Shown piece after piece: positions 22,436-47,433 of a DNA stretch of 64,000 nt. The position numbers and the translations under genes are program-made. The stretch spans positions 1,824,407 through 1,888,406 of the forward strand of contig NZ_CP026001.1 of NCBI RefSeq assembly GCF_003086775.1. Direction: 5' to 3'. Source of the DNA: Stenotrophomonas sp. ZAC14D1_NAIMI4_1 (GTDB taxonomy: Bacteria; Pseudomonadota; Gammaproteobacteria; Xanthomonadales; Xanthomonadaceae). How positions within the stretch are numbered: the first letter of the stretch is position 1; each line of letters opens with the position of its first letter. The notes under the pieces are model-generated. The model saw only the letters and a list, made by a program, of their open reading frames with translations, made no database searches and was not told where the DNA came from.

Positions 22436-22808
22436 ATCCACGCCATGCGTGGATGAGGGTCTTGTTTGCAGGGCTTGCAGCCCTGCACCTGCCGAAGCCG
22501 AAGCAACAGCAACAGCTGGTTATCCGTGGGATGGCGGGGTGGGTCCGGTTGAGGGGGACGCCGTAAATACGTCCATGTAGGCTCGGTCGCCGCATCCATG
22601 CGGCTCACGCCCCCTCAACCGGCCCCACCCCGCCTTCGACAGACTTCCGCGATCTGTTGGAGCCTGCTGTTGATGGTGGTGGGTGCCGACCGTTGGTCGG
22701 CACGGGGTTGGATCTGGTAGGTGTCGACCTTGGTCGACACAGTAGAGCCACGCCATGCGTGGATGATTCATTCGATATCTGACAGATGTGCCGACCAACG
22801 GTCGGCAC
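22432..22808. repeat. SMAG-type hairpins in a repeat-filled gap
   Basis: The 633 bases between the LysR gene and the tRNA-Arg array hold no gene. GTAG-type or related hairpins are seen at 22432-22456, 22683-22703, 22717-22740, 22742-22765 and 22788-22808. The whole block is also arranged as a large inverted repeat: 22635-22703 resembles the reverse complement of 22788-22850, and outside these lie two copies of a longer palindrome described separately. Confidence 0.8.
22533..22634. repeat. Long palindromic element, copy A
   Basis: Arms 22533-22557 and 22610-22634 pair over 25 positions with one mismatch. The core between them begins GACGCCGTAAA and contains a second hairpin (CCGCATCCATGCGG). 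The core and the flanks (GTGGGATGGCGGGG... and ...CCCCGCCTTCGACAG) match copy B, but the inner arm sequence does not. Confidence 0.75.
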
Positions 22809-22849
22809 CCACCACCAGCAGGTTCCAACAGCCGAGGGGATCTGTCGAA

Positions 22850-22951
22850 GGCGGGGCACTGTGGGTTTGCGGCGTGTGAGCCGCATGGATGCGGCGACCA
22901 AGCCCCCATGGATGGCTTTACGGCGTCCCCGCACACCCACAGTGCCCCGCC
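22850..22951. repeat. Long palindromic element, copy B
   Basis: It lies in opposite orientation to copy A. Arms 22850-22872 and 22929-22951 pair over 23 positions with one mismatch. Read on the minus strand, the core is GACGCCGTAAAGCCATCCAT followed by the CCGCATCCATGCGG hairpin. Flanks and core are those of copy A; the arms are a different sequence. Confidence 0.75.
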
Positions 22952-23068: not shown

Positions 23069-23145
23069 TGGTGCGCCCGGAGAGATTCGAACTCCCGACC
23101 GCCTGGTTCGTAGCCAGGTACTCTATCCAACTGAGCTACGGGCGC
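23069..23145 (-). tRNA. tRNA-Arg(ACG), third of three
   Basis: 77 nt including the encoded CCA. The minus strand starts GCGCCCGTAGCTCAGTTGGA; the anticodon stem CCTGG/CCAGG encloses CTACGAA (anticodon ACG), the T-arm has GGTTCGAATC-type sequence and the acceptor stem is GCGCCCG/CGGGCGC. It is the promoter-distal copy, followed by the terminator, and is identical to the other two copies. Confidence 0.97.
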
Positions 23146-23177
23146 CAATTACATAAACTTGTTGTGTTGATCGTGTG

Positions 23178-23254
23178 TGGTGCGCCCGGAGAGATTCGAA
23201 CTCCCGACCGCCTGGTTCGTAGCCAGGTACTCTATCCAACTGAGCTACGGGCGC
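23178..23254 (-). tRNA. tRNA-Arg(ACG), second of three
   Basis: Identical in sequence to the copies at 23069-23145 and 23326-23402, with encoded CCA. Spacers of 32 and 71 bases separate the copies and differ in sequence, so the array probably arose by tandem duplication with older spacers. Confidence 0.97.
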
Positions 23255-23325
23255 GCGGTACACAATCAATTTTGTTACTACATTTTACTGCATCTTCCAG
23301 CGGCGGATGCTGGAAGCCTGTCGAG

Positions 23326-23402
23326 TGGTGCGCCCGGAGAGATTCGAACTCCCGACCGCCTGGTTCGTAGCCAGGTACTCTATCCAACTGAGCTACGGGC
23401 GC
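23326..23402 (-). tRNA. tRNA-Arg(ACG), first of three
   Basis: Promoter-proximal copy, identical to the others. Its first ten bases overlap the last codons and TAG stop of the upstream hydrolase gene (stop at 23393-23395). Confidence 0.97.
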
Positions 23403-35609: not shown

Positions 35610-35671
35610 CGGCCGGCCTGCGTTTCAGCGCCTCCTTTCTCCGTGGGGGAGGCGGCAGGCCAGCCGATCCA

Positions 35672-35783
35672 GGACACGCCGTAAACCCATCCATGGGGGC
35701 TCGATGGCGCCTTGCTCGCGTGCGCTGTCCTGCGCACACGAGCAAGGCGCCATCGAGCACCATGGATGGGCTTTTGCGTGTCC
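35672..35783. repeat. Long palindromic element, copy C
   Basis: One nearly continuous hairpin: GGACACGC/GCGTGTCC outside, CCCATCCATG/CATGGATGGG next, and a perfect 20-bp inner stem (35699-35718 with 35739-35758). The left side reads ACGCCGTAAACCCATCCATG, the core shared with copies A, B and D. It fills most of the gap between the sugar porter and tRNA-Glu; the flanking sequence is only weakly paired. Confidence 0.75.
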
Positions 35784-47327: not shown

Positions 47328-47433
47328 GAGGCGGCGGATAGCCCCCACCAGGACCGCAGGCGCCATGGATGGCGCCTACGAGCCCCCATGGATGGGTTCA
47401 CGGCGTGTCCTGGTGGGGGCTATCCGCCGCCTC
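47328..47433. repeat. Long palindromic element, copy D
   Basis: Arms 47328-47354 and 47407-47433 are perfectly complementary over 27 bp. The 52-base core read on the minus strand starts ACGCCGTGAACCCATCCATG and carries an inner hairpin AGGCGCCAT/ATGGCGCCT. It lies between edd and eda within the operon, where a strong hairpin could reduce or protect transcripts. Confidence 0.85.

Follow-up and report, generated by a model that had tools for sequence, protein, structure and literature searches.

We found that the two palindromic elements at positions 22533 to 22951 of the 64,000-nucleotide stretch analysed here (the window), which was taken from a Stenotrophomonas chromosome of 4.70 Mb, belong to a large family of dispersed elements under selection for their folded form. 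That the element is a folded structure is, taken by itself, a conclusion that we hold with very high confidence, and it works as a single-stranded nucleic acid, most likely RNA, on one defined strand. More tentatively, its sequence features suggest a dispersed structured RNA element presenting two putative RsmA/CsrA sites, a reading that we favour as quite possible rather than as probable. The family is absent from Rfam 15 and, as an RNA or RsmA-site element, is apparently new to the literature. A search of titles and abstract openings, with subscription papers mostly outside its range, gave no description of the elements as RNA or RsmA sites, and the literature search on CsrA sponges in repeats found no paper combining all search concepts.

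Read on the strand that carries its GGA motifs (the GGA strand), an intact copy of about 102 nt has the order P1 - P3 hairpin - AGCY - P2 hairpin - YTYRCRGC - P1', in which a P1 stem of approximately 25-30 bp closes a junction of three helices with the hairpins P2 and P3. Element A (22533-22634) has its GGA strand on the minus strand, with arms at 22533-22557 and 22610-22634 that pair at 24 of 25 positions around a 52-nt core, and it was scored at 102.8 bits on the minus strand against 36.8 bits on the plus strand by R2, a covariance model built from relatives, which recovers A, B and a third copy in the window. On the minus strand, its P2 hairpin (22568-22579; sequence and R2 alignment) has the loop AUGGAC and its P3 hairpin (22589-22604; R2 alignment) the loop AUGGAU. 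Element B (22850-22951; 88.5 bits on the plus strand) lies in the opposite orientation with its GGA strand on the plus strand, and its arms, at 22850-22872 and 22929-22951, pair at 22 of 23 positions over the outer 23, with a 56-nt core. It is slightly decayed, with mismatches at a few positions of P1 and at one of P2: P3 (22880-22895; R2 alignment) and P2 (22905-22916; sequence and R2 alignment) both have the loop AUGGAU, and the outermost of the three inner pairs of P2 is broken.

The arm pairing agrees with that given in the first-pass annotation, as do the identities of core and flanks between the two copies; the strand that it had treated as the core strand is the opposite of the one on which pairing is preserved, as judged by the G-U/A-C polarity described below. 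The larger inverted repeat that it had placed between the copies (22671-22703 and 22788-22820; 33 nt, 97%) turns out to consist of two REP (SMAG) units, spanning 22671-22820 and matching Stenotrophomonas REP sequences among those listed in PMC2817692. The tRNA array that it had noted beyond the copies consists of three tRNA-Arg (acg) genes on the minus strand (23069-23402, starting at 23069, 23178 and 23326), which adjoin element B and lie outside it; this neighbourhood looks incidental. The genome's one csrA/rsmA gene (G000:C1:1821581-1821736) lies about 2.7 kb before the start of the window and about 25 kb from A and B, a nearness that is probably coincidence.

The third copy (47330-47431, plus strand; R2 108.9 bits) is solitary and lies between edd and eda, with its GGA strand antisense to both genes. 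Its P1 arms (47328-47433) are paired at 27 of 27 positions, unique to the site and unlike the arms of the other copies compared. A weak match at 35651-35758, near a tRNA-Glu gene (30.9 bits on the minus strand, 24.0 bits on the plus strand), is probably a degenerate or decayed copy. Nine inverted repeats of the A/B kind, several of which are other repeats, were counted in the window, compared with 0, 0, 3, 4 and 0 in five triplet-shuffled windows. A search of the whole window against Rfam matched tRNAs alone at the gathering threshold; a search at E <= 5 returned just miRNA-type families and Ysr224, all far under their own gathering scores. Single-sequence folding did not distinguish the two strands, which fold about equally well (third copy -93.0 and -93.9 kcal/mol), and did not produce P2 and P3 in copy B.

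Covariation was assessed in 57 non-redundant elements (<93% identity), drawn from the 165 of 203 elements that have at least 18 of 25 P1 pairs in a fixed register; the pairing of P2 and P3 played no part in the choice of elements. Both sides had changed in 34 of 41 pairs, and the covariation score was 0.696, far above the 0.174 of shuffles and the values of at most 0.116 in slid registers. Paired cells made up 94.9%, against 66.5% in shuffles, a percentage that for P1 is conditioned because elements were chosen partly by their P1 pairing. The letters of P1 are nearly free and in many copies peculiar to one site, with 88 distinct 5' arms among the 165 elements and 68 among 75 outside the genus, and in some distant genomes the P3 stems are wholly different (GCGAC/GTCGC, AAAAC/GTTTT) around an unchanged loop. 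The junction strands are also strongly conserved. Together with the strand-specific asymmetry of G-U and A-C and the fold kept at an orthologous site, this covariation strongly supports the earlier proposal that the folded form is under selection.

A transition in one arm leaves either an A-C or a G-T mispair on a given strand, and strand-symmetric mutation yields the two in equal numbers. In P1, mispair events on the GGA strand, counted as distinct local contexts in the fixed register at loci located through the core and not the arms, comprised 55 G-U and 7 A-C; the G-U:A-C split was 28:2 in the own genome and 33:5 in others. Other genera (75 elements, after 4 of 79 had been dropped for length) gave 54:1, in a set for which choice by the covariance model favours G-U, and the 35 intact orthologues at edd-eda contain 9 G-U, 1 A-C and 9 other mispaired cells. 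As a control, four REP families from the same genomes (element loci and 400 kb of the own chromosome), read from the tagged end, gave 16 G-T and 13 A-C (Fisher p=1.7e-5 against the elements), and chance or a plain REP was rejected on this ground. The G-U excess on the GGA strand therefore means that the fold matters as a single strand, and on one strand. The same polarity contradicts a 3'-UTR element on the core strand, at which the order of the pairs had hinted. Counts in a fitted register (79:7 cells, 37:6 events) were replaced by the fixed-register count, from which 38 of the 203 elements, those with fewer than 18 of 25 pairs, are excluded.

The edd-eda site allowed orthologous copies to be compared. 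Among 60 genomes of the genus with a gene match, 56 loci were viewed, of which 35 have an intact P1 and core in the same orientation, with the GGA strand antisense in all 35; 7 are damaged (L361, L371, L373, L379, L380, L383, L395), 11 have no element (L397, L399-L408) and 3 were unusable (L377, L393, L398). Several of the loci without an element bear, by eye, a short GC hairpin of variable sequence at the same spot after edd. P1 occurs there in several haplotypes, most of them near-perfectly paired, and within haplotypes about 7 compensated and about 5 single changes were counted by eye. The own copy differs from L354 by C-G to T-A and C-G to G-C, with no single change. Some compensated changes are transversion flips for which no intermediate was seen (L353/L354), and L386 and L387 differ by a 1-nt insertion in both arms; G-U intermediates occur in L357, L366 and L374, and an A-G mismatch is left in L360, L365 and L376. 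Because the P1 haplotypes disagree with the edd tree, alleles seem to have been exchanged between species, and a tree-based count of 94 double changes, inflated by this exchange, was set aside. As to whether both arms change together between orthologues, compensated changes occur within haplotypes, single changes and G-U intermediates occur as well, and whole-allele exchange between species accounts for much of the apparent joint change. Since a copy with arms of its own has kept its fold for this long, it is probably under selection in place, as a decaying mobile end would not be.

The two hairpins present GGA in their loops. When the search expression did not specify its loop, P2 reads ANGGAY on the GGA strand in 198 of 200 elements, its second position taking all four bases, in a set of which about 30 loci were fetched by a loop-fixing pattern and to which 3 more of the 203 elements, with a shorter middle, do not contribute; as a check, allowing 2 mismatches genome-wide adds only 4 copies to 133. 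The P3 loop matched in 189 of 203, a figure that is not independent because the fetching pattern fixed this loop for many own-genome copies. In other genera, the P2 and P3 loops follow ANGGAN in 149 of 150 cases, with positions 2 and 6 variable, and in the P2 loops both N positions take all four bases. A spacing of 23 nt separates the GGA motifs of P2 and P3 in 163 of 165 elements.

These features are those of RsmA/CsrA sites, in which GGA stands in a hairpin loop of consensus ANGGAN closed by C-G. The accessible text of PMC7652899 describes an ANGGAN hexaloop with variable N and the bridging of two sites at 10-63 nt, with an optimum above 18; by that range, the two loops of the element, at 23 nt, lie at a distance that one CsrA dimer can span. 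ANGGAN also occurs in RsmZ (PMC3791407), and in the RsmE and RsmZ targets, as far as described in the parts consulted of PMC3791407 and PMC7652899, the A and GGA are contacted and N may vary.

Copies remodelled at the hairpin tips often retain a GGA loop. L384 has the pentaloop AGGAC in place of AUGGAU, and L385 has lost the GGA of P3 (loop ACGAC) in a copy that is otherwise intact. Where a three-hairpin insert replaces the P3 loop (L390, L060, L061, L063), its first hairpin lacks GGA and the other two carry it on the functional (GGA) strand, as AGGAC together with AGGAUC, AGGAAA or GGAC, and the variant partner at L177 has GGA loops in both hairpins. The P2-loop insert in L056, L058, L054 and L059, by contrast, removes the GGA loop, and its hairpins are without GGA. 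These multi-hairpin inserts are nested palindromes at the tips, found in the P3 loop of L052, L060, L061, L063 and L390 and in the P2 loop of L056, L058, L063, L054 and L059. In element B of L046, an insert of about 215 nt with TGAAGTGACCCCC inverted ends lies inside the P2 loop and resembles an IS3-type remnant.

Among known systems, the element is most readily compared with RsmX/Y/Z, CsrB/C and RsmU of Xanthomonas campestris, which share ANGGAN hexaloops on hairpins with variable stems and two sites at bridging distance. In contrast to those RNAs, it is a dispersed repeat of more than 100 copies in the own genome, in which a long stem closes one fixed junction of two hairpins, and it is often antisense to its neighbours. 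RsmU is described as a single 3'-UTR-derived sRNA and RsmA antagonist, reported only in Xanthomonas, in the text consulted of PMC7694677. SMAG/GTAG REPs and BIMEs resemble the elements as intergenic palindromes and are interspersed with them, whereas REPs are single hairpins of 20-40 nt with a GTAG-like tag and without mispair polarity (A-C 13, G-T 16). Integron attC sites are, like the elements, strand-specific folded sites with variable stems; recombination boxes were not recognised in the element by eye. The REP definition given in the part of PMC3733652 available to us, a single hairpin of 20-40 nt with a GTAG or CGTC tag, does not cover a 102-nt three-helix element.

If the element is an RNA with two RsmA/CsrA sites, its GGA strand would be transcribed as part of a 3' UTR, by read-through between convergent genes, or as an antisense or small RNA; P1 would hold P2 and P3 in place, and one RsmA/CsrA dimer could bridge both GGA loops. 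Many copies together might then titrate RsmA, or might mark their host transcripts for RsmA-dependent control of stability, and duplication or mobilisation may have multiplied the family within Stenotrophomonas, in the form of outward-facing pairs that surround REP arrays. The main difficulty for such an RNA is that between co-directional genes the GGA strand lies antisense and sense about equally often, and is antisense at edd-eda; moreover, in outward pairs one of the two copies has the GGA orientation per transcript, and the junction is conserved beyond the need of RsmA decoys.

The family is abundant and widely scattered. In the own genome, a core pattern centred on P2 has 133 exact copies, and 137 with at most 2 mismatches, with none for the reversed-pattern control in either case. 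The exact pattern occurs in 45 of 61 genomes of the genus and is missing from 16. Within the bacterial family, R2 detected the elements in 36 of 149 genomes, in 15 of 54 genera (E<=1e-6), under stricter filters and with scoring limited for most genomes to 27 candidates or fewer. Across the class, a core pattern was present in 14 of 274 sampled genomes (the own genome included) and 13 of 221 genera, and two distant families in this sample have 50 and 54 copies. A scan for one P3 variant in named genomes gave, among the 80 of 93 stretches listed, Stenotrophomonas panacihumi, Stenotrophomonas sp. HITSZ_GD, Xanthomonas euvesicatoria, X. arboricola, Arenimonas composti, a Lysobacter bin, Chromatocurvus halotolerans and a Halieaceae bin; this set overlaps with the R2 set, and some genomes counted as other genera carry the name Stenotrophomonas at NCBI. 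In draft genomes (e.g. G226, G145, G071), many contigs break off no more than a few dozen bases from an element, so that drafts probably undercount the elements. CsrA was found in 24 of the 25 genomes with elements that were tested and in 23 of 25 others, so its presence does not discriminate and was rejected as a test of the RsmA reading. The exception among those with elements is G445, which has a match to the element and none to CsrA.

Neighbouring copies show a fixed polarity. Among 103 copies examined in the own genome, neighbours at most 1 kb apart point outward in 37 of 38 pairs and inward in none, and elsewhere 36 of 43 are outward and 2 inward. Alternating arrays of four (L189; -,+,-,+) and five (L191; -,+,-,+,-) elements were also observed. 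Many elements, in L044-L070 and among the own-genome copies, form a composite module with a variable (CAACAG)n-like tract and a GGCAGGGCTGCGCCCTGCACC hairpin. The pair polarity, and the REP arrays between the pairs, favour an alternative that we regard as possible, on the unlikely side, namely a palindromic DNA repeat associated with a Y1 (HUH) transposase, the GGA strand of which would fold as single-stranded DNA and be the recognised end of a REP- or TIR-like mobile element, with outward pairs being miniature elements that lost their transposase. Hairpins of single-stranded DNA, too, tolerate G-T better than A-C. The long, self-complementary TIRs of the tyrosine transposase gene 1152 in S. 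maltophilia K279a, mostly close together, resemble the pairs and come from the same organism group (PMC3733652). This likeness is drawn from the description of those repeats: the accessible part of PMC3733652 mentions neither a strand polarity nor a loop motif nor hairpins inside the repeat, and the TIR motif GGGGWSAS was matched just loosely by eye.

Against a transposase-associated origin, a motif scan of 409 sequences revealed no convincing Y1 transposase (hits in L246 and L350 were judged spurious by eye), and the only Y1 gene recognised in a further 400 kb of the genome (L412) encodes a REP-associated transposase and has GTGCCGACC REPs, rather than elements, on its flanks. According to the portion consulted of PMC6006769, most TIR-associated tyrosine transposases belong to a subclass of Y1 enzymes that carry helix-turn-helix domains at the C-terminus. 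The two members differed in arm type in the 18 pairs inspected, and the maintenance by compensation of a site-unique P1 at the orthologous edd-eda site is unexpected for decaying transposon ends. The long-spaced pairs L137, L116 and L074 were considered as transposase carriers and rejected, since their inner frames look like translations of REP arrays and have no Y1 motif. A structured RNA and a Y1-associated repeat can both hold, as a mobile repeat carrying an RNA, and even if the elements act as single-stranded DNA, they would be a rare example from nature of numerous unrelated stems that reveal the functional strand letter by letter.

The position of solitary copies relative to genes was examined in three partly overlapping sets, in which 1 of 53, 3 of 40 and 1 of 24 lie between divergent genes and 18 of 53, 18 of 40 and 9 of 24 between convergent genes. 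Between co-directional genes, the GGA strand was sense:antisense to both in ratios of 10:7, 7:8 and 5:5 in these sets, where gene strands were taken from a home-made codon-based caller in which strand errors are possible, and 4:5 among 18 copies class-wide. In 11 distant gammaproteobacterial genomes with 1-2 copies each, the element lies 12-84 nt after an open frame of the same direction in 8 of 13 loci (L241, L242, L244, L245, L249, L250, L251, L252), and Pfam identifies 6 of these frames as genes (L241, L244, L245, L249, L250, L251); this placement speaks for the RNA reading. The scarcity of solitary copies between divergent genes and their frequency between convergent ones would suit a 3'-end hairpin, in which P1 stops exonucleases or assists termination where genes converge and the loops are incidental; we consider this improbable, as it accounts neither for the ANGGAN loops and the covariation of the inner hairpins nor for the conserved junction and the strand polarity, and no U-tract was seen by eye after P1.

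Template switching or arm conversion within a cruciform, which the first-pass annotation had offered besides selection and which would keep the arms complementary without selection on the fold, draws some support from the transversion flips and the two-arm insertion, both seen at the edd-eda site, and from the core inverted between its arms in L064, but it predicts equal numbers of G-T and A-C, where the core strand shows 7:55, and no conservation of loops and inner hairpins, so that as the sole cause it is very improbable and already disfavoured; arm homogenisation by template switching may still have contributed.

Returning to the RNA with two RsmA/CsrA sites, its furthest-reaching form, which we rate as unlikely, would be a distributed RsmA/CsrA titration system in Stenotrophomonas and scattered gammaproteobacteria. 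Up to 100 or more two-site RNA modules, borne on repeats and paired outward, would fill the missing role of an RsmB/CsrB-type antagonist, and new copies would rewire the regulon. Read-through of an outward pair in either direction would then yield one docking module. Should the elements bind RsmA, a whole class of 'junk' repeats would amount to a regulatory network spanning the genome, and it would become possible to test directly what antagonises RsmA in this lineage.

Rearranged copies were observed at the site between a LysR gene and tRNA-Arg. By eye, unrelated arm types replace each other there, and L059 has arms of two types. In L064, from the same intergenic region, the arms around the inverted core are ordinary, as if the core had been flipped by arm recombination (by eye). 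In L062, a deletion has seemingly merged A and B, bringing their outer halves together.
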